From: Saccoglossus kowalevskii
Lineage: Eukaryota > Hemichordata > Enteropneusta > Harrimaniidae
Assembly (NCBI RefSeq): GCF_000003605.2
Contig: NW_003140811.1
Coordinates: 409,612-455,935 of the forward strand
Reading direction: 5' to 3'
Length of the DNA: 46,324 bases
Position numbers and translations under genes: made by a program
Notes under the pieces: model-generated
The model's database searches: none
Told to the model about the DNA's origin: nothing
The model's input: the letters and a program-made list of their open reading frames with translations, nothing else
Part shown: one piece after another, positions 1,013 through 39,000 of the stretch
Layout of the letters: the number at the start of each line of letters is the position of its first letter
Numbering within the stretch: position 1 is the stretch's first letter

Positions 1013-1051
1013 ATATAGTCTCAGACTAGTAATACTAGTCTGAGATATAGT
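1013..1051. mobile_element. Ultra-short palindromic insertion, family II copy, 7-bp TSD
   Basis: A 25-bp palindrome at 1020-1044 (CTCAGACTAGTA ... TACTAGTCTGAG) is flanked exactly by ATATAGT at 1013-1019 and 1045-1051. It shares its end sequence with the copy at 5080. Confidence 0.85.
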
Positions 1052-2892
1052 TCAGTAATATCTTTTAGTAAGTACAGTCTCTAATATATGCTGGACATTT
1101 ACATAAACGCGCTTTTACAGTACCTTTAACAACACTCCATCTGCTGTACACAGGTTCCTCGGGTTACCAGAGTTACGAAAATTGTGTATCCCGAGAGGCT
1201 CCATGAAGAACAAGAAAACACGCATCCTGATACGTGATGAGTGATCACAGACCATCTTATCTAAGATAGACTAGGGTAATGTTGTCATATCACAGGAACA
1301 CTTTCAAAATTAATACACCAGCCAAGTGATTGACAATGCGAGTATCCAATTATGCGATGATAGCGTCACAGCTGGTGATTTTCTACAGTAGTAGACGAGC
1401 CATGGCGTTATTGGGCACAATTCCTCGCTGCTGGTCCGAAAGTTCCAGTGATGTTGTTGAGAAGGAAGAGTTATTTTAAGCAAAATACGGCGGTGACAAT
1501 TAGAATTATTTGTGGGAACTGATTATGGAATGCTCCGCTATAAAAGACGAACTACTATGTATTTTTATTATCAATATTTTAATAATATGTCTCAATACCA
1601 CTCCATGTCGACACCCTTGACTTTCTATGTAGAATTGCTCACACAAAACCTGTTGTCACCTCCCCTCATTTCATCCGTCCCCGCCACCCTTAAACAAACT
1701 TACTACCCCGTGTTCATAAGTTGAATTGAACCCGAGTAATAAACACAGTGGCTCCTGGTTGATATTCAAAGGTCTGGTAATAATTTTGACCACATTAGTA
1801 GCCCAAATTACTAAACTGTGTCAAGCATGCATTATTGTTTGACACGGTTTAAGGTTAGATACTTTACAGTTGTTCGTTTAATGAAATAAAAAAACACTAA
1901 TACACATGCGCAGTGACTGTACGTACTAAAACAATAAGCGCACATGCGTAGTAGATGTTTCGTCGAACGAATACGTAATTACCTGCTTTAGAAATAACGT
2001 ACTTTGTTCAGAATAATGTGGTCATCAACCTGTAGTATCAAACAACACAAGCAACAGTTAACAATACTAGCAGGGGTGGTTGCAGGTTGTTCAGTTTGGC
2101 GGGGCATCTTTACAATGTGTTCATTATCGCATTGCAACGTGGTGTATATGTACAGTATATCGGTAACAACGGTAACCACTATATGTGTTAAACATTACAT
2201 GTCCTCAATCATAACAATCAGAAATCAAAGCGGCGGAACGAAATTTTGCCTGAGGGCGAGATCTGAAATCTAGACTCTCTGAAACGCTATTTTCTACATT
2301 TTGAGGGGCAAATTTTGCTGACACAAAGGGTTTCAGCTTGATTTGAGGGGCGACACATTCTTTTACGGCGGCGAGTGCCCCCCCCCCGGTGCCACCGCCA
2401 CACAAGTTCAGAACATGCATGCCGCAACCAAAGAAATGTACATAGGTATGGAGATTCGTCCCTATATGCGTGGACCTTGACACACACCCACCAATTATAA
2501 TTTAGGGGCGCTCAAAAACACATTCAACACAACAACCGTTACCTTGTAGTCTAACCATATAATATAGTCATATAATATCATTATATGATATTTCAACTAC
2601 AAAGGAGGAGTACATTCGATGTCAAGGTAAAAAAAAATAGCGATGCGGCTCCCATAGCGATTCGTTAATAAATTAACTTGAATATCGAAGTATTAAAAGT
2701 GGAAAATTAGATGACCGGGTAAACACATTAAAATATCACGTGACATATGCGGGATAGTCATTTGTGGATGGCCAGAATCTCGATAGAGAACGTACTAAAC
2801 GAAGTGATTTATGGGTTGAACTTGTCAAATCCATTTCTAGCGCGACATAGTCAGAGGTTCTGCCCCAGTGTGGTAATTCGCCTCCAATCTAC
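1052..2892. other. Non-coding stretch, no gene seen
   Basis: Only short frames without splice support. A 25-codon ORF in good start context (1402) lacks a donor. Near 2275-2405 there is GC-richer sequence with a C run that may be a decayed DNA transposon end. No confident feature. Confidence 0.5.
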
Positions 2893-2932
2893 ATCTGACC
2901 AAAGACAATAGAAAAAGTGTCTTTGATCTGAC
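2893..2932. mobile_element. Ultra-short palindromic insertion, 7-bp TSD
   Basis: A 26-bp hairpin at 2900-2925 (CAAAGACA, 10-nt loop, TGTCTTTG) sits between two copies of ATCTGAC (2893-2899, 2926-2932). The end sequence differs from the other families. Confidence 0.8.
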
Positions 2933-4077
2933 CAATGGCACATGCAAAACGCATTCTGAGGGTGAACATCTAAACATAACTTGTGTTACAACCAGCTCTC
3001 AAGTAAGGCGCGCTCGCGGGGACGCGCTCTAATTCGTTGGAATTCCCGTCAGTAAAGAGAACTGTCGGAACGCAATTTACAATAGATTTGGTGCAAGACA
3101 TAAATGTTACAGTCATTGTCTTTGAAAAAAATAAATAAATGGCGTTAGATATCATGAATAATATCGTGAATATGTTTCATTATATTTTGCAATGTTTCAT
3201 AGAAAACTTGTGATTCATTTGGAATTTGATGTGTAGCAGTGATTGAACACTCTGGGCCGAGTTTTCAAATATGACAGGAGTCTACACAAATATTACTGAA
3301 TCTGATCACAAGACATTTTCACATTATCATGTCTTGCGTTTTATATTTAGGACTTAAAGTCAGCGTAGTACTACGTCTACATCACGTGCGTACTTTCCCC
3401 ACAATTTGCGGCTTTGTTCTTGGTATTTTGCTACCTTTTAAATAGGGACGATTGTTCAAACGAAACTACCCTTGAACTCAATGAGTTTGAAGTATGTCCG
3501 ATCTATTATAAAGTGAATAGAAAGCTAAAATTAGAAATTACATAATTTGCTTATGTTTTTTTTTTTTATAATTTAAACTGTTATCATCTAGAGGGAGGTA
3601 CATCAGAACTCAGACTAATACAAGTCAGAACAACACGCGAGTCGAACGCAGCAAACCTCAGACTAGTGTTACTTACTACTACTTACAAACCGACAAGCAT
3701 CATTAAACATATCATTCTTTTCATTTTGGTTGTTTTGTTGACGAAAATGGTTACAACTTAGTTAAAGTTTATTGAAATCTGAAAAAAATACCAATTGATA
3801 GTTCGAGAAAATCATGTATCCATCATATCTTGAATTTGAACAAACTCGTTGAAACGGTATCTAAGAAATGGTAAGAAGTCAGTCAAAAACAAAACCAGTC
3901 GACACATGTCCGAGAAATGATGCCGGACAGACGCATGAACGGACGAAACTAACACTTTAGTGGCGTAAAATAATGTCTCATGTGTTTAATGAATATATCA
4001 TGTTCCCCGGCAGTTTGACAAGGACAAAGTCCGGGAGGGGGCATGTAGTTTCGCCTTCGTCAGTCCGTCCGGGGTGA
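2933..4077. other. Non-coding stretch, no gene seen
   Basis: AT-rich, with short frames only. At 3603-3631 TCAGAAC is repeated directly on either side of TCAGACTAATACAAG, which resembles a decayed family II palindromic insertion, but the hairpin is poor. Confidence 0.4.
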
Positions 4078-4620
4078 TTTCTCGGAGAAGCTGGACCGAT
4101 TTTTTTGAAACTTTGTACAACGACATAGTGGTCAACCATACATGTGGACGTCAATTTATTTTCCGATTCGATCAAATATGGCTGACTGGCGGCCATTTTA
4201 ATGCCAAAAGTCAGTCAAATTCGGTCCTTGTGTATGTCCATCGTCATTTCTCGGAGATGGCTTGACCGATTTTGTTGAGACTTGTTACAAACACATTGTT
4301 TTACTTTTTTTGAAATGATCAAATATGGCCGACTGACAGCCATTTTGATTGTTAATCATGGCTTTTGTCTGTCCATTGATTTTCTCAGAGGTGCCTTGAC
4401 TGATTTCAATGACACTGGGTACAACGACACAGTGAGGAGGTATACATATTCACATGGATTTATTTCCTGTTTTGATCAAACATGGCTGCCTGGCGGCCAT
4501 TTTGAATGTCAAAATCCTGTAAAATCCATTTTTTTGGGTGTGTCCATCATTTCTCGTAGATGCTTGGACCGATTTTGCTGAGACTTGGTACAAATACAGG
4601 GTGACCACTAATACAGATGC
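4078..4620. repeat. Tandem repeat array, about four units of 130-170 bp
   Basis: Units open with ttctcggaga-ggcttgaccgattttgttgagac-like sequence at about 4077, 4246, 4378 and 4549. Most contain an imperfect palindrome around atggctgactggcggccatt. The palindrome motif recurs in the repeat at 13349-14394. Confidence 0.75.
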
Positions 4621-5072
4621 ACATTGATTTTTTGTCAAAGAATCAATTAATGAGCTCATTTGCGTATTTTATTATTAATTTGAGTTCTTGTTAATATCTT
4701 GTGAACTAATAGTCCAAATCAGACCGAACTTGGTAGAGACTTGATTTGTCAATACATGTATAATATATATGATATGCAATATTGAGTTTCAATTTACTTA
4801 AGGATGCTGTACACCTTTTTTTGCTTTGAAACCCCAAATTCTACTTTTTTGTATTTTTCAATGCTGGACTACAAGGAGCAAACACTCAGTAGGAAAAAAA
4901 GTGAATTGAATGTTTTTATAGGGTGTAAAAATCAATTTTTGTTAATTAAAAACAAAAGCACATGTCATTGTTTTGAAAGCTATGTTTTAATCAATCAGCC
5001 AAAGACATAATAGACAGATAATTTGCATAATAGTCACCACCCATAGCAAATATAAACAGTCTCTTGCATTCA

Positions 5073-5130
5073 GCACAAGCTCAGACTAGTAATACGAGTA
5101 CATTTTTGTATTAGTAGTCCGAGGTACAAG
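5073..5130. mobile_element. Ultra-short palindromic insertion, family II copy, near-perfect 7-bp TSD
   Basis: A 44-bp imperfect palindrome at 5080-5123 (CTCAGACTAGTAATAC, loop, GTATTAGTAGTCCGAG) is flanked by GCACAAG and GTACAAG (6 of 7 identical). Confidence 0.75.
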
Positions 5131-5654
5131 TTACACGCACTCCATTTACGATCGTCCATCATTTGCATATTTAATGAATTTTGAATTTTTCTTAATATCT
5201 AATAGTCCAAATCAGACCGAACTTGGTAGAGACTTGATTCGTCAATATAATATATATAATATGCAATATTGAGTTTCAATTTACTTAACGAGATCATTTG
5301 CATATTTAAGGAATTTTGAATTGTTCTTAATATCTTGTAAACTAAATGTCCAAATGAGACCAAACTTGGTAAAGACTTACTTGATCTGTGAATATAAGAT
5401 GTGTGCTATGCAATATTGACTTTCAACTTAATTAATGAGCTAATTTGAATATTTAATTAATTTTTAATTTTTGTTAATATCTTGTGAATTGATAGTTTAA
5501 ATAAGATCAAACTTGTTATAGGCTTACTTTATCTGTCAATATAAGATATGTGCTATGCAATATTGAGTTTCAACTAAATTAATGGGCTCATTTGCATATT
5601 TAATTATTTTTGTTAATATCTTGTTAATTAGTATTCCAAATAAGACTGTACTAG

Positions 5655-5696
5655 GTATAGACATGGATGTACTTCTTAGTACATCCATGGTATAGA
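5655..5696. mobile_element. Ultra-short palindromic insertion, family I copy, 7-bp TSD
   Basis: A 28-bp palindrome at 5662-5689 (CATGGATGTACT, TCTT, AGTACATCCATG) lies between GTATAGA at 5655-5661 and 5690-5696. It interrupts a tandem-repeat unit whose sister copies read ggtagagactt without a break, so the pre-insertion state is visible in the window. Confidence 0.9.
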
Positions 5697-6094
5697 CTTA
5701 CTTGATATGTCGATATAGGTAAGGTTGATATATGTTGATTTTTAACTTAATCTTCCTACCCGATTTTATACATATACATTCAATTTAATTCATAGCCAAC
5801 TATCTAACAACTATCACATCTGATAAGTGGGGGCTGTGTCATCTTAAGATGACTTGTATATTGATTAAGTATTATTATGTTAGCCAATAGTTGTACGCAT
5901 TTTAACACGTTTCACTAGTGTATTCACCTCACTTCAACATTTACCCATATGGCTAAGAAACACACTTTCAGACATTACAAACCATTTTAATGAGTATTAC
6001 GTCATTGGTCATTTTGATAGCTAACATTTCAGCCAATCACTGCCATGTTGTAGGATGCAAATTAAAAACAACAGCTTAAATGTACGTTTTCTTA

Positions 6095-6121
6095 ATCAAA
6101 CCACAGGGACTGTGATCAAAC
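6095..6121. mobile_element. Ultra-short palindromic insertion, family III copy (13 bp), 7-bp TSD
   Basis: CACAGGGACTGTG at 6102-6114 is flanked exactly by ATCAAAC at 6095-6101 and 6115-6121. It equals the copy at 6395 less 7 internal bases. Confidence 0.8.
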
Positions 6122-6387
6122 AGATGCTGTTTTTCCCAATCAGACTTAACTGATAACCAGAGTTGTTCATCGGATAAATAAACATTGACAAAGCAAATAA
6201 ATCAATGCATGTACAGAGATGTTATATAATGCCTGCTGCCCCATGTGTGTTGTATGTAATCCTCTCTCAGCCAAGTCAATTTTGAGTACACAGTGGCAGT
6301 CAAGGTTGCTATGCAGACACCCTTAGCACCGGCTAACGAAGTGTTCATGAACGCTTAGCCGTGGCTAAACGCCCAAAACGTCATTGT

Positions 6388-6421
6388 ATTCAATCACAGT
6401 ATGGAGGGACTGTGATTCAAT
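6388..6421. mobile_element. Ultra-short palindromic insertion, family III copy (20 bp), 7-bp TSD
   Basis: CACAGTATGGAGGGACTGTG at 6395-6414 is flanked exactly by ATTCAAT at 6388-6394 and 6415-6421. Confidence 0.82.
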
Positions 6422-7392
6422 GCTCATTTGGAAGGTTTACTATTAAATTCATAACTATTCATTTCGGAATGCCATTGCCATCAACGCGAGGACATCTAGA
6501 GATATTGTTCTCGAGAAAGAATGTCGACCTATGATAAGAATCTGTGCTGCTTCCCGTCATTCTTCAGTCTACACTTTCTGGGTTTGCTTTGGTATTTTTC
6601 TGTAACCGTAGAACTAACATGTACACCGTTCTAGTTACTCGTACTGTACTGAGTAATCATAGTTAAAATGACTGAAGATTTGTGTATATTCTTAACAAGT
6701 TTGGGCGTTACTTCAGTTATACCGTGCTAACCACTATTTCCTACCGTACATGCGTGAACGCATTTAGTTCTATCCATGGAGGTAAAAGACTTTTACTTGC
6801 ATGTTCTATCCGATATGCAAACATACAATATTAGCTTAAATTTTAGCCCGTAATTCGTGTAGCGTGAACACTACTATAAACGAGGTTTCTTTGATCATGG
6901 AGGTAAAATGTGTTGATCTATAGAATTAGATTTTATTAGACGACTAGTAGCTTCGCGGTAAGTGGCTTTCTCGTTAAGTGGGTTTCGTTATGGGTGGGTC
7001 TTGCGGGGAACAGGGCTTTGTCGAGGTAACTGGTCCTGTCATCGATGTTGAGAATTAAAGTTTTATGTTTCTTTAACAACTTGCGCTATTCTGGGAACAC
7101 CATCCTTAGAAGCTATTATTTTGCCTTTATGGTTTGTCAGTGTTATTTACGAAAATATTTGTTTATAATTTTATAAATTGGCTTGGCAATTCCAACCCCA
7201 ATTAGTTATAATGTGTACAAGTTTTAATAACAAAAATGAAATATTAATTATTTCATTATTTAACCTGCACAAAATTAATCAATATTTTTCCTTGCTAGAA
7301 TGATGTGTAACTTCATATGGGAATCCTGATAAAGTTCACAGCTGGCGATTTAGCAATACCCGTATCAGGGATTGTCAACTTCTTGTGATTTT
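6422..7392. other. Intergenic stretch, nothing recognised
   Basis: No frame above chance and no clear repeat. A weak hairpin (about 7324-7376, TCCTGATA / TATCAGGGA) has no flanking duplication. Confidence 0.5.
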
Positions 7393-7606
7393 GATTACAT
7401 AACGTTTTTAGGTTCATGTGCTGCATATTACAGAGCAAGTACCTAAGCGGCCGTTCCTGGGTAAACAATTAAGCCAAGGCAAGGCAATTCTCCGTTTTTA
7501 CGCAATCTGGGAAGTTCGAATTACTAAATGAAGTACAGGACGACGAAGCTGAACTATCCAAGAACCAACACATACCAAAAATCAAAATCTCAAAAGTGAA
7601 TATTTG
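7393..7606. repeat. Dispersed duplicate segment, copy 1
   Basis: Clearly similar to 9294-9520, with an internal length difference. After an acceptor-like tttttag at 7411, an open frame starts GTTCATGTGCTG (VHVLHITEQVPKRPF) and runs 39 codons to 7531. The sister copy stops after 19 codons, so coding is unproven. Confidence 0.6.
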
Positions 7607-8028
7607 GCAGGTAGGTCGTACCGTCACTGATTGGAAAAAAATCCTGGCCCACCACTGCCATTGCAATAGCCAAAAACTGATTTTTGAATACTTTCGCTCC
7701 AAATTTATTACCTCCTACCAGTTTTGTAATAGCAGTGTTCAAATGATCATGCTTTTTATTTTATCTATTTTGCGCACTGGTCAGATATCACTGGCGCCGA
7801 CATTGTTACACTGTATCAACGTAATCCTAATGAAACTTTGAATGAACTGTAAATGCTGCCTTCGTTCTAGAAAATACTATCGCAAAACGGTTGGAAATAT
7901 AAATGTAACAGCAGAATACGTCCTAGTAATAAACTAAGTGACTAAAGACTGAATGTTTTTTGCGAACATCGTATACGGGACCCATTTAGTTATAAACTTA
8001 CGCTATTGATTAACGGTCATGTTCTACC
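7607..8028. other. Non-coding stretch before the 63-aa ORF
   Basis: No recognised feature. It would contain the promoter of the candidate ORF at 8029 if that gene is real. Confidence 0.4.
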
Positions 8029-8220
8029 ATGGAAACAGCCAAAAACACTTACTTGTCAGTGTCTGACTGTTATATACAGCCCAGAACACGCCAGAATAGT
8101 AAAAAAAGTCAGGAAATGTCAGTTGCCCGTGCCTTGAGAGCCGTTGAACCAAAACAACCTGTTACCCTTCGCCGCCCACAGCATCCATATGATTTTATAT
8201 TGCATAGAAAAGAACACTAA
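8029..8220 (+). CDS. Candidate small single-exon protein, 63 aa
   Basis: The ORF begins with an ATG in a strong context (accATGG) and has an in-frame TAA seven codons upstream, so this ATG would be the true start if the ORF is translated. Codon use is more even than in the surrounding AT-rich DNA. The product is basic and polar, with RTRQNSKKSQ and RALRAVEPKQPVTLRRPQHP, and has no signal peptide or membrane span. AATAAA lies at 8496, about 275 nt downstream. I do not recognise a family. It could be a short basic gene product, a terminal exon, or chance. Confidence 0.35.
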   Translation: METAKNTYLSVSDCYIQPRTRQNSKKSQEMSVARALRAVEPKQPVTLRRPQHPYDFILHRKEH

Positions 8221-8742
8221 ATGCAGCTATCCCGGTCAGCAATCGAATGATCAATCTTCATGATTTATGCAACTGGTATTTCCATCTATCTGAACTTTAA
8301 AATTGTCAAGTTCGGAATGTGTTTTTACGTACAGTGACGCGAACATTCAACAACGTGTTATATGTGATTTGAACTTATTATATTTTATTTACTTTTCAAA
8401 ATTCTTACTAACTTGTTATATTTTATTTTATTTATCTGTATTGATTAATATTCCTATTGCTATATACTGAAAGAAATGTATATTTCTAAAGATGCAATAA
8501 ACAATTACATTTGTATTATTATATTATTCGACAACGTGTTGAACAAGAAGTACATCTTGGGCTAGTGGCATTGCAAAATTTTAGAGAGTACAGGAAATGT
8601 TTCAGTAAGGAATTGTTATGCATATGAAAATCCTTTATTGGAACAGAACATGTTATACTAGTATATTCCCCCAAAACAACGTTGCTATGTTTCTAGGCGT
8701 ACAACGAATTCGAAACAAAAGAAATTGTCCGATCCAAACGAC

Positions 8743-8903
8743 CTGTGGCGGATCCAGCAAAATGTATTGGGGGGGGGGGGAGTCCAAGCTTCGCTTAAGA
8801 TATACGGAGGGAGCGTAAATCGCAGCTATGCGTAATCCAGATGATATGAATCGTCATGCGTTGGGGGGGGGCATGGCCCCACTGCCCCCCGGGTCCGCCA
8901 CTG
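8743..8903. mobile_element. Short DNA transposon (MITE) with G-run termini
   Basis: Ends ctgtggcggatcca... and ...gggtccgccactg are inverted repeats. Runs of 13-14 G and 9 G sit inside. Ends of this type (CAGTGGCGGA) are typical of hAT-like MITEs. No clear target duplication is seen. Confidence 0.6.
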
Positions 8904-9293
8904 CTGCGTCCTTGAGAATCTAGTCTTATCGCCTTTGCCTTTCGAGCGAAAAAAGGTTGAGGCCAAAAACAGGATAGGTTATTTACCAAATCCAAAATTT
9001 AGCGTGAATGCCTGCTACCTCAATTAGATTAAGTAATTGAAGGTAAAAACCGTGTATGCTATGAGTAGGACATCGACAGCCACGTTATTGAAGACAAATG
9101 AACACGCCAGGCAAAAAAGACTGTTTCGAGTCGTGGGTACATTGGAGGCACATACCATTTTGACTCTTGAGGGGAATGGAAACCAGTTGATTTGAGGGTG
9201 TCACAATAAGCGAGGTAGTAAATCGTTTTTATGCTACGACAAAATGCAAACCTTGAACATACTTTTTGGACTTTAGTACAACGTAATTTTTGT
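8904..9293. other. Intergenic stretch, nothing recognised
   Basis: Short frames only; no repeat structure seen. Confidence 0.4.
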
Positions 9294-9520
9294 TTGATTA
9301 CCTAACGTTTTTAGGTCCATGTGCTGCAATTTACAGAGCACATACCTAAGCGGCCGTCCCTCAGCAAATACTGAAGCAAAGGCATTTTCGATGCGGAAAT
9401 CGCGAAACTCGCCCTTTTTACGCAAACTGGGAAGTTCGAATTACTAAACGTACAGGACGACGAAGATGAAATATCCAAGAATCAACACATACCAAAAATT
9501 ATATCTCAAAAGTGAATATT
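9294..9520. repeat. Dispersed duplicate segment, copy 2
   Basis: Same segment as 7393-7606 with scattered substitutions and about 10 extra bases. The acceptor-like tttttag and the start of the frame (VHVLQFTEHIPKRPSLSKY then stop) are kept. Confidence 0.6.
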
Positions 9521-9786
9521 CGTGGTGTATTTTAAGTCTAACCGGACCATACATGCTAATGTGCTAGTACTCTAATTATCCAAACATATTTTAGTATTAG
9601 GTAGTAATAATTATCCGATAATGATTTAAATGACATTGTCGCGCCTTTCATGGAATTAGGTATATCACCACTAAGTGTGTACGATGTTGAATGCTGTTAT
9701 ACTTCCTGTAATTTAGTTCTAGGGTGACTGTATTGTCTATTTCGCATCGTCTAAAAATAAATGGTTAATCTGTATCCTTTTGGTTA
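9521..9786. other. Intergenic stretch, nothing recognised
   Basis: AT-rich. It holds a direct repeat of taattatcc around 9568-9615 without a convincing palindrome. Confidence 0.4.
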
Positions 9787-9830
9787 CTTCATGCATGGAT
9801 GTACTAAGATTAGTACATCCATGCTTCATG
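9787..9830. mobile_element. Ultra-short palindromic insertion, family I copy, 7-bp TSD
   Basis: A 30-bp palindrome at 9794-9823 (CATGGATGTACTAA, GA, TTAGTACATCCATG) is flanked exactly by CTTCATG on both sides. Confidence 0.9.
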
Positions 9831-10199
9831 CGTGAGGGACTGAATGACGGTAATAGACGATCTCACAAATCAGTGTTGACATCAAGATATGAATACTGAA
9901 TGGTGTGTTTGGAATGAACAACGTGGAGAAGTATAACGAGTAGTTTGATGGAATTTTCCAACAGTCATAAGCAGCTCTCACCTCTATCTGAAATGGAGTC
10001 ATATGCAAATGTGACATTTAATCACACAACCATCAGATGTTAAGCCAAATCACAAACCGATCGATGAGCTCTATTTATACCGGTGTCCGCCAAACTCGGC
10101 CCAATAAGGACTCGGCCGATGTTAGACTCGGTCGGTTTATGTGGGTGTTAATGGTCTGAGAGTGTTGTGGTAAAAAATAAAATACTGAATGTGTTGTTG

Positions 10200-10231
10200 A
10201 TTTCAGAATGGAGCTAGCTCCATGATTTCAG
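10200..10231. mobile_element. Ultra-short palindromic insertion, 18 bp, 7-bp TSD
   Basis: AATGGAGCTAGCTCCATG at 10207-10224, a 16-bp perfect palindrome plus one base at each end, lies between ATTTCAG copies at 10200-10206 and 10225-10231. If the first base was once C, its ends match family I (CATGG...CCATG). Confidence 0.8.
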
Positions 10232-11313
10232 TGACGCATCAGTGCTGTGTCATATCACAGTAAAAAAATAAAATACACGGCGATCAGCATTATTGCAATG
10301 TCTGTGTTTCCATGTAATGTCAGTGTCTTTTTGTAAACTTGCTCACTGAAATCGACAGCAGTCAAGAAAATTATTGAAATCGACAACATGTCAGGTAAAC
10401 AGTAGCGTTGTTGGGCGTGTTGTGTGGCATATATTTTTTTGCAAACTTGTCAAGTGTTACTGACCACTTCACACTTCGGCGATTACGATTACAAGCCGAA
10501 TTACAATGTAGCCCGCTGCCGACATCGACTGTATTCCTATTATACCTACCGTTGCCGAATGCCACTCTATATTCATTGTTATCACCGAACCACCGGAGAC
10601 ACCACATAATATAACACTGTTGGCACCACTATAGCACCAGCTGCAGCCTTCATAGTCTTCTAAAGACAGGTAAGAATATATTCGTTCTTGTCGAAAATAA
10701 TGTCACACTGGCATTACTGCACTTCGCTAAAAGTATTGAAACTCGCATTATGTACCATCATGGATGTACTAAGAAGTTAGTAAGTTAGTAAGTCAGTTAG
10801 TTAGTTAGTAAGTCTTAGTACATCCATGGTACCATACAGTCCTCGACCCCAGTTAACTCGGCCCCCATATAAGTGTAGGTATTGTCCATATGTCGGTGAA
10901 CATTGTAAAATAGGTAGATTTCGCTCGCTTTAGTGTACGTAAGTTAGTGAAATCAACAATTAGCCATTATGGCATTAACCATAGCGCACACGATGATATC
11001 TTAAGTAGGTGAAATCGACAACGCAGTGTGTCACCGACACTGCCAATACCAATATGGGGGTCGAGTTGACTTGGGGTCGCCCTCCGTGACATTCCCGATA
11101 TATCTGCTGCAGTATCTATTGACGCATAACCTCATTGTTGTTCCGAGCCCTGGCGTGATCGCCGACCCAAATAATACTTTTCTCTTCTATATTATCAACA
11201 CTATGTTATTACACATTCTGTATAAATACTATATCGTCGACTAGTAAAATTCTGTTTTATCACAGGTATATTAACTAATTCTCTATCAGTGAGCTGTACA
11301 ATTAGAAATCGAA
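10232..11313. other. 5' region of the FOXRED2-like gene
   Basis: Contains four copies of a gaaatcgacaac-like 12-mer (about 10349, 10376, 11010, and a shortened form at 11306) and one palindromic insertion (10752-10835). At 10388-10394 an ATGTCAG followed by a GTAAAC donor has the same phase as exon 1 of the downstream gene. No other gene seen. Confidence 0.4.
10752..10835. mobile_element. Palindromic insertion, family I copy with 38-bp loop, 7-bp TSD
   Basis: A 70-bp element at 10759-10828 has perfect 16-bp ends (CATGGATGTACTAAGA / TCTTAGTACATCCATG) around a loop made of ttag/taag tetranucleotide repeats. GTACCAT flanks it exactly on both sides. Confidence 0.92.
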
Positions 11314-23000: not shown

Positions 23001-26000
23001 CAACTGTTGAATGGGCATATAATAAACAAATAGTTACAAAAGTGAAGGTCAATATTCAGTTTCAATGATCAGTAGAGGAAATTGTTGGCCAAGGTCAAAA
23101 GTTCCTCTGAGGGTCATTGAAACTGAATATTAATTGATACTGGGGTAACTATGCATTTTATTATAATTGGAGTCTGTCGACATAATTGTTTGTAAGCAAC
23201 TACGCATGTGCAAAAATGATATCACTGGGTTTTCATTACTCAATAATTTTACTGGCCACCACATGATCTGACCAAACAGTCAAGTGTGATGATTTTGCAC
23301 ATGAGGTATAATAATATGAGGTTATTATGAGGATACCTAAAAGTATGCACGAAGACAATACAGCTGGAGTATCGACCGATGCACAGCGGAGGTCAATATC
23401 GCAAAATTACGGCACGCTGTAACGTATGGCGTTATGGTGACAGATGTATAATAATATTATTTCTTGCATGAAATTTCATTCAGATACTAAAACTTACAGC
23501 AGCAATAATATTTTCCATTTGTTGTATTTTCTGTTTCTCTTCATCTCTTGCATTGAGTGCTTCCAGTAGTGTCTTATAATGCATAAATAAGTCTTCATTC
23601 ACTATGAAGAAAAAAAGGAGACCATCCAGCAATTATTGTGAGAACATAATAAACCAATTAAGCTATCAATCTATGATTTGATGATGCTAAAAACATGCAT
23701 TTTCGAAAACAGATAAATTAATCAATTTTCTAATACTTTTGCTAAGAAATCAATAAATTATAAAGTCACAATTAGCATATTGCAAAAATTGATTTTTTAA
23801 GTCCTATTTTTAAATCCTATTTACCGGTATGGGAATTTTTAGCAACCAAAAATCAAATCAGACGTATTGTGCTATTTATTGACTAAATTATTGTCTTGAC
23901 TACAGTAAATCTAGACATGCATTGCTGTTGAATTCTTCTGTGATTGCCTACTAAATGTACTGTAAATGTCAAATTTGATTGGATGCAGTTGTAACTTAAA
24001 TTCAAAGGGAAGAGACCTATTAATGGCTATGCAGAAAACAACTCAAGTCTGGTACGTATCCCCAACTATCCTAATGAAAAATGCTTCACATTGAATACTA
24101 ATTTTGTACTATATAGTTCACTTTAGATTGGAATTGCTCTGTGGTGTTCTTGTACTGGCAAGAAACTCTTGAATAAAATGGTTGTATGATGTGTATTATG
24201 AAATTTTAGTGGTACACAAACCTCCCAATTACCACAAGATTGTAATAACACACAAAATTACTCTGCCATTGTGTACTGATAGCTACACACTGAAATTGTT
24301 ACAGAATTGCAAACATACTAGATTGATTAACAATATCTACAATAATTTTGGTCATTCATACCTTTGCTGATTAACTTGGCAAACCGTTCAGTTCCATTGG
24401 TCATTCCATTGTCAACAGTCTCCTTTATTGTCTCTGTAGCTGACTTCACTTCCTCAACACATGTTTTAACTCCAGCAAATATTCTATTTATCAAGTCTCT
24501 ACAGTAATAATATTTAATTTTCAAATTAGAAGACAGCGCCCTCTAGAGACTTAACTAAAAAGAGAGTGGCATAAAGCATCCTAACTAAAACTACTTTTGT
24601 ATATTGTATGAAAAGGATAAAATACATTAATGGCTTTTTGATTTGTTATTATTATAGCGACAATGATTTGACAGTCGAATTTGTAGATACATGTACTTAC
24701 CTTTCATCTCTCTCCTTTGCTTTTTGTTTATTAACTTCTAATTGATCTACATAGTTTACATTCACATTATTTGTTCTTGTGGTTTTGGTTTTAGGATTAT
24801 CCTTTGAGAATAATGGCGGCATTGACATATACTTGAGATGATATTTGGATGTGTCACTGTTGGACTGTATAAAAATATAGTAAATCAATGAACAACATTG
24901 AAAAAAATTGGAGGCAAAATTATCTACAAAATCAGCACCAATCACCACAGTAGAATAAACATAGTAATTTTATTGCTAACAGAAAGTCCACTGGCAATCC
25001 AGAGACTTACAACAGATATAACACATAATTGTATGAATGACTGAGTTTGCATCAATAGAAATTTGGCCATATATGAAATTTCCAAAAAGTCTTTGAGTGG
25101 CTGAATATTAAATTGTAACAAAAAATCACACTTTCGTTGTTTTTTACTATGTTTGCACTTCAGAATCGCTATGTTTCAATTACTATCACAGAATAATGAT
25201 TCAGATATTACTCCGGCAATTGTATTATATGTATAATGCTAGTATGTTCTCTGCTGCTAAAAAGATAATTTCTTACCTGCTGCTGGGATAGTCTCTGAGA
25301 AAACAATTCAGATGAGCTAGTCTGAGAATTTTCATACTGTGAATTCATCTGTTGGGAATTATTTTGACTGTATGCTTGAGTTGACAATAAAGCAGAATCT
25401 TCCCAGTCATTTGCAAAACGAGTATTTCTCAGGTATTCTCTGAAAGTAAAGTATTAGGTTTAGCTATTAAAGATTTTTAGTTTACCAACTGTATTTTCTG
25501 GCTTCTGCAAAGATATTGTAAAAACAAAAACTGCAAAATTACTCTATAAAACAAGTCCCCATCAATGATGCACTAGTAGTTGTATTTTGTTGCATTTGAT
25601 TAGAATAAACAACAGGAAGAAGGAATAATATCAAGAAAAGTTCATTGCGACAAAAACAATTGGTATGCACATAAAATCATTTTGAACAATTAGATGATTT
25701 TCAATGCAAGATCTTTTAGTGCGTGAACGACACAAATCAAATGTCTGCCCCAAGTATCAACTGATTTTATTTTGAATTTGAATATCTTATTTCATAATAT
25801 CAGGAAGAATGTTGGCTGTTTGCTAACAATTAATTTCTGATCCATGTATATTGCAAATACTGTAACTTTTGCATTTTCTACTAGGCACATACTAGTTCAT
25901 ACGTCAAATGCAAACAAAATATATCTGATAATACAGTTTTATACTCTGCAATTGGTATGACCACAGGGATGTGGTATTAAGTATAGCATTTGTTTGTCTC

Positions 26001-36000: not shown

Positions 36001-39000
36001 AACAATTTACTTGCTTTAAAATGGTGTTATCTTTTTATTTATGTACATCATGTAATTTTATTAATTTGCATTTGATATATATATATATATATTGAAATGA
36101 ATATTTAAAATTAAATGAAAGAAAAATGTTTATATACAAGTGGAAAACGAGAGCAAGAGATAACATGATACAAACTAATAAACATTATTGGACTGCGATA
36201 ACTAATTGCACTGTTCATTTATTTATTTTCATTTTCCAATACTGTAGAATAATATATTTTCGCTTGGAATTTATTTTCGCTATTTTCACTGAAGGGATGA
36301 TTCCGTGAAAATAAAATCCAGCGAATATACTTTGTTTTCTATATTTCACATTACACTCATCAAAAATCAGTGAAAAATAAATTCCATACAAAACGCCCAA
36401 GAAGCCTTTTCAGCGAAAAAATTAATTCCAGCGAAAAGAAAGTATTCCACAGTAATATATATTTATTTTATTACAGTATTGTAGGCTTTTGGCCTTATAT
36501 TCAACAAAAAGTCCATAAAATCAAAGGAATGATCATGCCATCTTAATCAACATTGGAAATAATATTGTCTCTTAATTTGAAACATTAGAGTATATACTTT
36601 GATAAAGACTGAAGCACAATTGGGTTATGAGAATTTAAAAGTGAAATAAATTTAATTTTTGATGGGTATTTGTAATAGTAAGGGGGAAGAAATTTTTCTC
36701 TCAAAAGTTTGTAAAAGGGACATTCGCAACAAAAATGAAAATTTATTTTTATATTTTGTTTTCACTTTCTGTAAAGTACATAAAGTGCAGATTCTTCTTT
36801 CTCTGGGAATATTTACCGCCCTACCACTCTTGATGTGAAATCTGTGACAAGAAACACGAAATCTGCATACGGAACTCCTGAGAAAATTGTTATTGATAGA
36901 GAACAGATATTTCTTTAAAACCCGATAATTTTTATAGAGACTATAGGTGTCAAGCATGGAAAAGGATTGCAAACTGATTGACCATTGTTGTGCAGCAATA
37001 TCAGACGATCTTTGTTTAAAGGTGGACACAAACATATTTACATTGCCGACCCCTTGTATATCCCAAGTTATACCGAGACCAAAACTAAACAGCAATTCTA
37101 TTAGGTTATATGCCCAGCATGTATAACCTCTTTCATTTATTTCAAATTGGTAATTATAACAACATTTAATATCTTGTCACAATCCTGGATGTTTAACCAA
37201 TATTTAACAATACAAGACATTCTAAAGGTTTTCAGCAGCAGTTCAAGTGCCTTTAGTATATACTTGCTAAAAGAGGTATGGACTTTTTCAATATTTTCTC
37301 CAGCATGGAATCCCCAATTTCACACTCGTAATTCAATATTGGTAGATTTTGACGTCACGAAAATAAAAATGTTGAAAAATGTTCAAATTTCCATGTTTTA
37401 TAATCGCAGACAGTCATACTTTTAAGTGTTAGGTATTCTGAATATGTTAGTAAGGAAATAGTCAATATAAAAAAAATTGTCTGCACAGGAAATCAATACA
37501 GTATAATATATTGAATGTATTCAGATTTGACTGGATATTACTGTTACGTACACTGTACAATGTATGGTGGTGATCTTATAGTGTTCTCACTGAACAAAAT
37601 AAGCCGTCACAACGCCTTTTATTTGAGAACGTTGTTAAAAATGTTTTTTGAATCAAGTTAGAAAACAGAAAGCAATATTAGAATATTGCTGTGATTTATA
37701 AAATCTGTTTGTTTTCTCTAAGCTTTGTTTAAATCACCATACTCATCACAACGTGTTGTGTTCGATATTGGTTGCATATGTGTACAATGCTTGCTTTCCA
37801 ACATGTGCTTTGTGATGACTTAAATGTGTAAAAGACAATGACAGATTGAACTACCTTAGTCAAAATTTAACATAAAAATAAAAAATATATATATACCGGT
37901 ATATATATATATATATATATATATGTACATATATATATATTAACAATATTGGTGGGATATATTCTGCCATATATAATATACCGGTAGTTTTTTACAGAAA
38001 AGTTTAAAAGAAATCTAACATGTATATGTGTAGAACCACTAATTATAATGTAATTATAGACTTTTATAGTAGTAAAATCATTTGCATATTTCCATTGAGA
38101 ATTGGAATAAACGTACAAGAATTCATAATGTCAGCTAAATTACAAAACAGTAAATGTACGTTCTGTGAATCTAATTGTGATTAAACACAATTTTAATATT
38201 GAATGAATTTGGTCATTTCTGAATTAACCTACCAAAATATAACAACAAATACTTTCAATCGGGAAGTTTCAGTTTAAAGCAGGCTCTTTCAGTTTTCTGT
38301 CTGCTAGGAGTGAATCAAGTTGGTCCATTATAGTGTGATGTCACTTCCTGGATACAATGCCTCTAATGGCAGACAGAGAGTGAATCAAATTGGCCTAATA
38401 GCATGTGATGTCACTTCCTGTATACAGTGCCTGATAAATGTCAGATAAAACATTGAATGTCAAACCACTGCTAAAGTCTAAAGAATGCTTTGGTAAAAGC
38501 CAAACTCAATTTCTGCTGATTTTCCAGTGATTTTAATGCACATTAGTATGACTTTAAACTAAGTTCCTAATTAGGCCAGATAAAGTGAACTCTACTTGTT
38601 ATCTGATTAGTGAAATACATTTATTCATTTTATAGCCAATCTGTATAACAAAAGTCTAGAAATGTCAACATCACTTTGATTCAAATTAATCCACTTGTGA
38701 TTTTCACAAGGAGAATGGTGGTTTTGAGTATTCAATCTTAGCAACCCAAAACTGCACATTAACACAGCACATGCCCTCTTTTTTCCTAAAAATATTTAAA
38801 AAAAAGTTTTTGCTAGGGAAATTGAAACCTTTTTCTGATTGAAACAAGTTTTCTGATTGTAAACAGTATTACGTACATATTCTCAAAATACTGGAGCCCA
38901 CACTTCTATGGTTGTATATAATAACTTTTTTATAATAATAATTTTTTATAAACTTTCTCAAAGTAGGTTTCTATTTTATTTTCACAACTGGAATAATTTG

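Follow-up and report, generated by a model that had tools for sequence, protein, structure and literature searches.

The short palindromes in the Saccoglossus kowalevskii window (the whole 46,324-nucleotide stretch that was analyzed) are very probably the repaired donor sites of departed P-superfamily cut-and-paste transposons, which belonged to several families and made a 7-bp duplication. As the duplications show, an element inserted and duplicated 7 bp of its target. Later, the transposase would have cut one strand at the border of the element and the other about 17 to 19 nt inside it. With such a staggered cut, each broken chromosome end would retain at most about 18 nt of the inverted repeat as a tail. 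The junctions suggest that these tails were then shortened and rejoined through microhomology or by polymerase-theta-like end joining, sometimes with the addition of templated-looking filler. The expected product is the duplication, part of one end, filler in some cases, an inverted part of the other end, and the duplication again. As excision scars, the palindromes would thus record both the position of the transposase cut and the mode of break repair.

The first-pass annotation had described nine palindromes, and all of them matched that description when they and their flanks were re-read. Eight are flanked by a perfect 7-bp repeat, and the ninth (5080-5123) by a 6/7 match. The latter lies inside a larger repeat that is also present at another locus (L054), where the paralogous copy carries GTACAAG exactly at both flanks. 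An empty-site paralogue was found for a residue nested in L054. In eight of the nine palindromes the first base is C and the last is G; the exception, 10207-10224, has A at its first base, where C is found elsewhere in its family. A tenth site, absent from the annotation, was found in a scan of the window (Table 1). The palindromic form holds insofar as two transposon ends lie back to back, but most of the palindromes are imperfect, with arms of unequal length. All ten sites do lie before 10.9 kb, but the end sequences of the nine annotated ones recur genome-wide and are not specific to this region.

Table 1. Probable excision scars in the window, with their flanking duplications and families (F1 to F5)
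Positions	Family	Left flank	Residue (positions)	Right flank	Source
1013..1051	F2	ATATAGT	CTCAGACTAGTAATACTAGTCTGAG (1020-1044)	ATATAGT	sequence read
2893..2932	F4	ATCTGAC	26 bp, CAAAGACAATAGAAAAAG + TGTCTTTG (2900-2925)	ATCTGAC	read, window scan
5073..5130	F2, with filler	GCACAAG	(5080-5123)	GTACAAG	read
5655..5696	F1	GTATAGA	28 bp (5662-5689)	GTATAGA	read
6095..6121	F3	ATCAAAC	CACAGGGACTGTG (6102-6114)	ATCAAAC	read, window scan
6388..6421	F3	ATTCAAT	CACAGTATGGAGGGACTGTG (6395-6414)	ATTCAAT	read, window scan
6768..6810		TTCTATC	CATGGAGGTAAAAGACTTTTACTTGCATG (6775-6803)	TTCTATC	window scan
9787..9830	F1	CTTCATG	30 bp (9794-9823)	CTTCATG	read
10200..10231	F5	ATTTCAG	AATGGAGCTAGCTCCATG (10207-10224)	ATTTCAG	read
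10752..10835	F1, with long filler	GTACCAT	70 bp (10759-10828)	GTACCAT	read

The arms and joins differ from site to site. The F2 site at 1020-1044 has arms of 16 and 12 nt with a 3-nt overlap. The F1 sites have arms of 17 (right) and 12 nt with a 1-nt overlap (5662-5689), 16 and 14 nt without overlap (9794-9823), and 17 and 16 nt separated by a 37-bp filler (10759-10828). Within the 70 bp of this last site, arms included, TTAGT occurs six times. A sequence search with positions 10700-10900 returned eight matches, of which five were to the filler region; the other three were the window itself, its inverted self-match, and a match to the right flank. Four copies in the window of the repeat that hosts the 5662 site lack the scar and represent empty-site paralogues.

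The window scan required C...G borders and arms no shorter than 4 bp, for element lengths from 9 to 49. It gave seven matches at a duplication length of 7, four at 5, two at 6, and none at 8 or 9. Six of the nine earlier palindromes were recovered, the seventh match being 6775-6803; the sites at 10759, 10207, and 5080 were missed because of excessive length, the A start, and the inexact flank, respectively. When at least 6 bp per arm and maximal duplications were required, three matches were obtained at 7 bp, whereas 20 Markov shuffles averaged 0.05. At other lengths there were two at 6 and one each at 8 to 12, and these fell in an AT repeat (6, 8, 10, and 12), at 23051-23131 (6), at 37891-37986 (11), and at the 5662 site itself (9).

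For 48 F1 and F2 sites from the window and from elsewhere in the genome, the borders were fixed by the arms alone. A 7-bp flanking duplication was present at 42 of them (37 exact, 5 with one mismatch), and each other length from 4 to 12 fitted at most one site. The 7-mers therefore behave as target-site duplications, as had been proposed. The annotation had named a lack of excess of 7-bp flanks over 6 or 8 bp as a refutation; in the samples examined (these sites, the window scan, and the generic scan below) the outcome was the opposite. As a point against the excision reading, the duplication was missing, by the criteria used, at 10/28 F1 half-site loci and 4/23 F2 residues. The target duplications show an RTTNAAY trend. 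A generic scan was run on 67 nonduplicate sequences (244,493 bases) with four shuffles; this sample is not a random portion of the genome because it is centered on F1 and F2 sites. Outside these two families, seven matches were found at length 7 (1.25 expected), 11 at length 6 (3.5 expected), of which 5 were nested in F1 or F2 scars, and 51 and 11 at lengths 4 and 5 (41 and 8 expected). One match was found at 8 and two at 9, both of the latter being F1/F2 scars.

In the 244-kb sample, short palindromes flanked by repeats of 4 to 6 bp were common, as they would be if the sites were chance palindromes next to random short repeats. This explanation has a negligible probability, since length 7 stands out among the duplication lengths and particular words are repeated tens to hundreds of times. 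The end sequences of the palindromes were found throughout the 572-Mb genome, with 0 or 1 match for reversed-pattern controls except in F4 (11). The pattern search located 230 two-armed F2 sites, 602 + 603 matches to the F3 pattern (control, 0 + 1), 180 CAAAGACA palindromes for F4 (control, 11), and 121 CATGGAGCT palindromes for F5 (control, 0). A 15-mer from the longer arm of the 6395-6414 scar occurred 12 times. By pattern count, the five families together comprise about 1,500 two-armed sites. The F2 scars (230) outnumber the countable intact F2 ends (62), and of 440 exact F2 16-mers, 49 run on into the intact end with at most three mismatches. F1 is known almost from its scars alone; two F1 loci (L031 and L034) have a common longer interior, which counts against the excision reading.

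An intact F2 element of 1,125 bp was found at one locus (L067), with 32-bp inverted repeats and the 7-bp duplication ATCACAG on both sides; it is the only intact element read with both flanks. Among the 50 listed of the 230 F2 sites, the arms reached a maximum of 18 nt: 18 of the 100 arms were of this length and none was longer. A hard inner cutoff could be assessed in F2 alone because only this family has a known intact end, the F3 and F4 references being just 17 and 19 nt long. F1 arms end at 17 to 18 nt, relative to a poorly known intact end. At each site the outer parts of two transposon ends, unequal in length, meet at a variable join that shows microhomology or filler. At filler-free joins, microhomology was seen in 28/34 cases for F1 (random expectation, 0.34) and 15/24 for F2 (0.41). 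Nearly one-armed residues were also found between exact duplications: two (L036 and L032) retain 15 to 17 nt of one end and 1 to 2 nt of the other, and L019 is another. As expected of excision footprints, there is thus a residue between target duplications, made of both outer ends with an inner cutoff (F2) and variable end-joining junctions.

The annotation had treated the palindromes as an inserted class, produced either by extreme internal deletion or as a hairpin product. In favor of ultrashort MITEs or hairpin products that are themselves mobile and inserted by a transposase with a 7-bp duplication, some identical palindromes recur: among the 50 sites listed per family, CATGGATGTACATCCATG accounts for 8 in F1 and the CTCAGACTAGTAATACTAGTCTGAG junction for 6 in F2. 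However, the recurrent forms are joined by microhomology, with overlaps of 4 and 3 nt, and some recurrences ride in larger repeats, as do three F1 copies about 8 kb apart on one contig (C84). Most junctions differ, the two arms of a site are of unequal length, F2 arms extend no further than 18 of the 32 nt, and residues with hardly more than one arm should not be mobile units. We therefore regard mobile palindromes as very unlikely. As candidates for inserted MITEs, the sites showed neither end-to-end shared sequence nor complete inverted repeats; the 50 sites listed for each family had 34 distinct junctions in F2 and 23 in F1.

Internal-deletion derivatives are known for P elements, and abortive gap repair inside resident elements, with no excision, would also yield variable junctions. 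However, deletion endpoints would then be expected anywhere, including past nt 18, where none of the 100 listed F2 arms ended, and the one-armed residues have lost one end almost to the border. An origin by gap repair is thus slightly less probable still than one by mobile palindromes.

For the donors, the best lead remains the P superfamily, which the annotation had suggested; 7-bp duplications occur in Galileo (PMC4168063), and Drosophila P junctions share the anatomy seen here (PMC2895639). Inverted repeats close to the 31 bp of P, with a 7-bp duplication, were seen in F2 only (32 bp), in the single element L067. Genome searches for a transposase gene bearing F1 to F5 ends gave none. The L067 element has no stop-to-stop frame longer than 92 aa, and when the F2 element served as a DNA query (40 of 98 candidates scored), full-length copies were about 1.1 kb and none was multi-kb. 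The genome contains 13 matches to PF21787 (TNP-like_RNaseH_N), which we take to be a marker of P-type transposases, and none was on the contigs with the 68 listed F1 half-sites or the 62 intact F2 ends.

That no transposase is linked to F1 to F5, and that the duplication (7) and arm length (18) are each one off Drosophila P, would fit excision footprints left by a different superfamily that makes 7-bp duplications and cuts with a long inner stagger. We consider this improbable, although less so than the other alternatives. Against it, the literature presents a long stagger as an unusual trait of P, the inverted repeat is 31 bp in P (32 bp in F2), and Galileo, of the P superfamily, also makes 7-bp duplications (PMC4168063).

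The closest parallel to the P-type scars proposed here is Drosophila P. Its excision involves a 17-nt inner cut and end joining of the tails, with 8-bp duplications outside (PMC2895639, PMC7776569), whereas here the duplication is 7 bp and the arms reach 18 nt (F2). P{wa} repair junctions likewise consist of the duplication, up to 17 nt per inverted end, microhomology or a templated insertion, and the duplication; they are variable, and some deletions there extend beyond the duplication (PMC2895639). Galileo has a palindromic target preference, GTANTAC, compared with the RTTNAAY trend here, and its inverted repeats are long; the text examined reports no footprints (PMC4168063). The P-MITEs of Anopheles gambiae resemble the 1.1-kb F2 elements in being nonautonomous and having P-type ends, but they have 8-bp duplications and are resident elements rather than scars; the word "footprint" does not occur in that text (PMC1562414). 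According to a preprint, zebrafish THAP9/Pdre2 represents a P-type transposase in a noninsect animal, and its excision causes donor-site deletions; unlike F2, Pdre2 has 13-bp inverted repeats and 8-bp duplications (PMC10983969).

P-element footprints were already known from Drosophila, where they were made in crosses, whereas the present scars are natural and belong to several families. A literature search with the two end sequences returned no paper, and no genome-wide set of P-type scars was found in titles and abstract openings, which is weak evidence as the search covered few subscription papers. We think it reasonably likely that these sites constitute a large natural archive of P-type scars (about 1,500 sites), from which the cut position (17 to 19 nt, depending on the family) and the spectrum of germline repair could be read without biochemistry. 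Excision scars may pass for tiny MITEs, and caution is warranted. Natural scars would be frequent enough for one assembly to show the transposase cut site, the duplication length, and the germline end-joining routes, and such an analysis can bring to light transposon families that are now largely gone.

The first-pass annotation had reported nine short palindromes in the window (1020-1044, 2900-2925, 5080-5123, 5662-5689, 6102-6114, 6395-6414, 9794-9823, 10207-10224, and 10759-10828), eight between exact 7-bp direct repeats and one with a 6-of-7 match, and all nine were confirmed together with their duplications. A scan of the whole window that required C...G borders, arms no shorter than 4 bp, and an element length of 9-49 yielded seven matches at a duplication length of 7, four at 5, two at 6, and none at 8 or 9. 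All ten residues, including one that had been overlooked (F8 in the table), lie before position 10.9 kb, within the window's first quarter. They represent at least six families and form a dense cluster, with none at 10900-46324. The cluster may reflect a hot spot for insertion or, alternatively, selection that removes insertions from genes. Within the 37-bp filler between the arms at 10759-10828, the arm motif TTAGT is repeated. Two F2-like starts in direct orientation, 48 bp apart and without a clear duplication (3609-3617 and 3657-3667), are perhaps decayed scars.

The end sequences of the residues proved to be words repeated across the genome (572 Mb in 4,830 contigs), each search being controlled with the same pattern read backwards. 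Half-sites are matches to a single end sequence, and two-armed sites hold two outer ends joined in inverted orientation.

Families of end sequences, with their sites and the basis of each assignment
Family	End sequence or pattern	Sites (reversed-pattern control)	Basis or remarks
F1	CATGGATGTACTAAG	68 half-sites (0); 76 two-armed sites (1)	Genome pattern search
F2	CTCAGACTAGTAATAC	440 half-sites (0); 230 two-armed sites (0)	Genome pattern search
F3	CACAGT(0-30)GAGGGACTGTG	602 plus-strand and 603 minus-strand matches (0 and 1)	Pattern count without flank checks
F4	CAAAGACA	180 two-armed sites (11)	Pattern count without flank checks
F5	CATGGAGCT	121 two-armed sites (0)	Pattern count without flank checks
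F6	CATAGACC	Loci L014, L054	7-bp duplication; end seen once or twice
F7	CACCGTCCC	Locus L055	7-bp duplication; end seen once or twice
F8	CATGGAGGTAAAAG / CATGCAAGTAAAAG	Window 6768-6810 (element 6775-6803)	Window scan; tenth residue, same type; TTCTATC on both sides

Because symmetric sites score on both strands, the F3 matches correspond to roughly 880 sites (the 100 listed matches were 73 sites). Summed over F1-F5, the pattern counts give about 1,500 two-armed sites, those for F3-F5 without flank checks; one-armed scars escape these counts, since the patterns require two arms. Some sites were copied along with larger repeats, and therefore not every site is a separate event. Identical palindromes occur in regular series on two contigs of the assembly, at C84:872, 8688, and 16598 (F1) and at C471:57073, 57241, and 57451 (F2), and these are scars moved along with larger tandem repeats. 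On contig C67 (33451-33520), an F4 and an F5 palindrome lie exactly 7 bp apart, as if one had inserted beside the other and the target were shared.

The duplication was examined at 48 F1 and F2 sites from the fetched loci and the window, where both outer arms were recognizable and the borders were fixed by the arms alone. A 7-bp duplication was exact at 37 sites and present with at most one mismatch at 42, while lengths of 4 and 5 occurred at one site each and lengths of 6 and 8-12 at none. The 11 nonexact sites comprised five with one mismatch (L033, L057, L060, L069, and L073), two inner anchors whose outer borders carry exact duplications (L011 and L077), and four where no 7-bp duplication was found (L026, L041, L043, and L080). 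The 30 F2 half-site loci represented 25 sites, two with intact ends (L064 and L067) and 23 residues, of which 19 had a duplication (17 exact) and L041, L042, L043, and L065 had none by our criteria. For F1, 30 half-site loci represented 28 sites; 18 had a duplication (17 exact), and by the same criteria 10 had none (L009, L013, L016, L017, L020, L025, L026, L027, L028, and L031), although by eye 6 of 7 positions match beside the one-armed residues at L020 and L028. A palindromic RTTNAAY trend was observed in a set of 45 exact duplications chosen for a length of 7 (G/A at position 1 in 37, T at position 2 in 37, A at position 6 in 37, and C/T at position 7 in 34).

Some F2 ends occur as pairs about 1.1 kb apart. 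The element at L067 measures 1125 bp, is flanked by ATCACAG on both sides, and has 32 bp identical at both ends, followed by differing sequence. This 32-bp end had 62 genome matches at up to three mismatches, and by our count 49 of them keep the 16-mer exact; thus, for about 391 of the 440 exact F2 16-mers, no intact end follows. In a whole-element search, 40 of 98 candidates were scored, and there may be up to about 100 resident F2 copies. The F1 loci L031 (1501-1612) and L034 (1501-1614) carry the same interior, about 80 bp long and oppositely oriented, which may represent a resident F1 MITE; at L031, the outermost nucleotides of one end are missing.

Among 50 listed sites of the 230 two-armed F2 sites, arms spanned 9 (the search minimum) to 18, with 18 arms of length 16, 11 of 17, 18 of 18, and none longer; the intact repeat reaches 32. 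F1 arms, also from 50 listed sites, end at 17 (nine arms) and 18 (four arms). For F3, 71 of the 73 listed sites were at most 36 bp (47 permitted), and all 50 listed F4 sites were at most 39 (46 permitted), but these show a length limit and not a cut position because the references were just 17 and 19 nt long. Nearly one-armed residues lay between exact duplications at L036 (17+1), L032 (15+2), and L019 (17+3, with filler). Microhomology was present at 28 of 34 filler-free F1 joins and 15 of 24 F2 joins (expected fractions under uniform random joins, 0.34 and 0.41), counts that still include repeated copies of one event.

The 5662 site lies inside a repeat with four other copies in the window, which lack the residue and carry a single, inexact version of the duplicated 7-mer. 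The repeat around 5080 (5073-5130) has a paralogous copy in L054. There, at about 1474-1500 of the plus strand, a 27-bp residue, CATAGACCTT...AAGGTCTATG, is bounded on each side by GTAATAC and lies within the F2 residue of that copy, one scar nested in another.

P transposase cuts one strand at the element end and the other 17 nt into the 31-bp inverted repeat (PMC7776569). In Drosophila, a donor site after repair retains the 8-bp duplication on both sides of at most 17 nt from each end, together with microhomologies or templated insertions (PMC2895639, Tables 1-3). The residues here have the same anatomy, with a duplication of 7 rather than 8 and up to 18 nt rather than 17. Galileo, of the P superfamily, is described with 7-bp duplications of consensus GTANTAC (PMC4168063). 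The genome contains 13 P-type transposase (PF21787) matches. We conclude that the residues are most likely P-type excision footprints; we infer both the transposase type and the repair enzyme at these residues. Scars of this kind are already known, and, as far as a limited literature search shows, a natural multi-family archive of them, readable in one assembly, has no earlier description.
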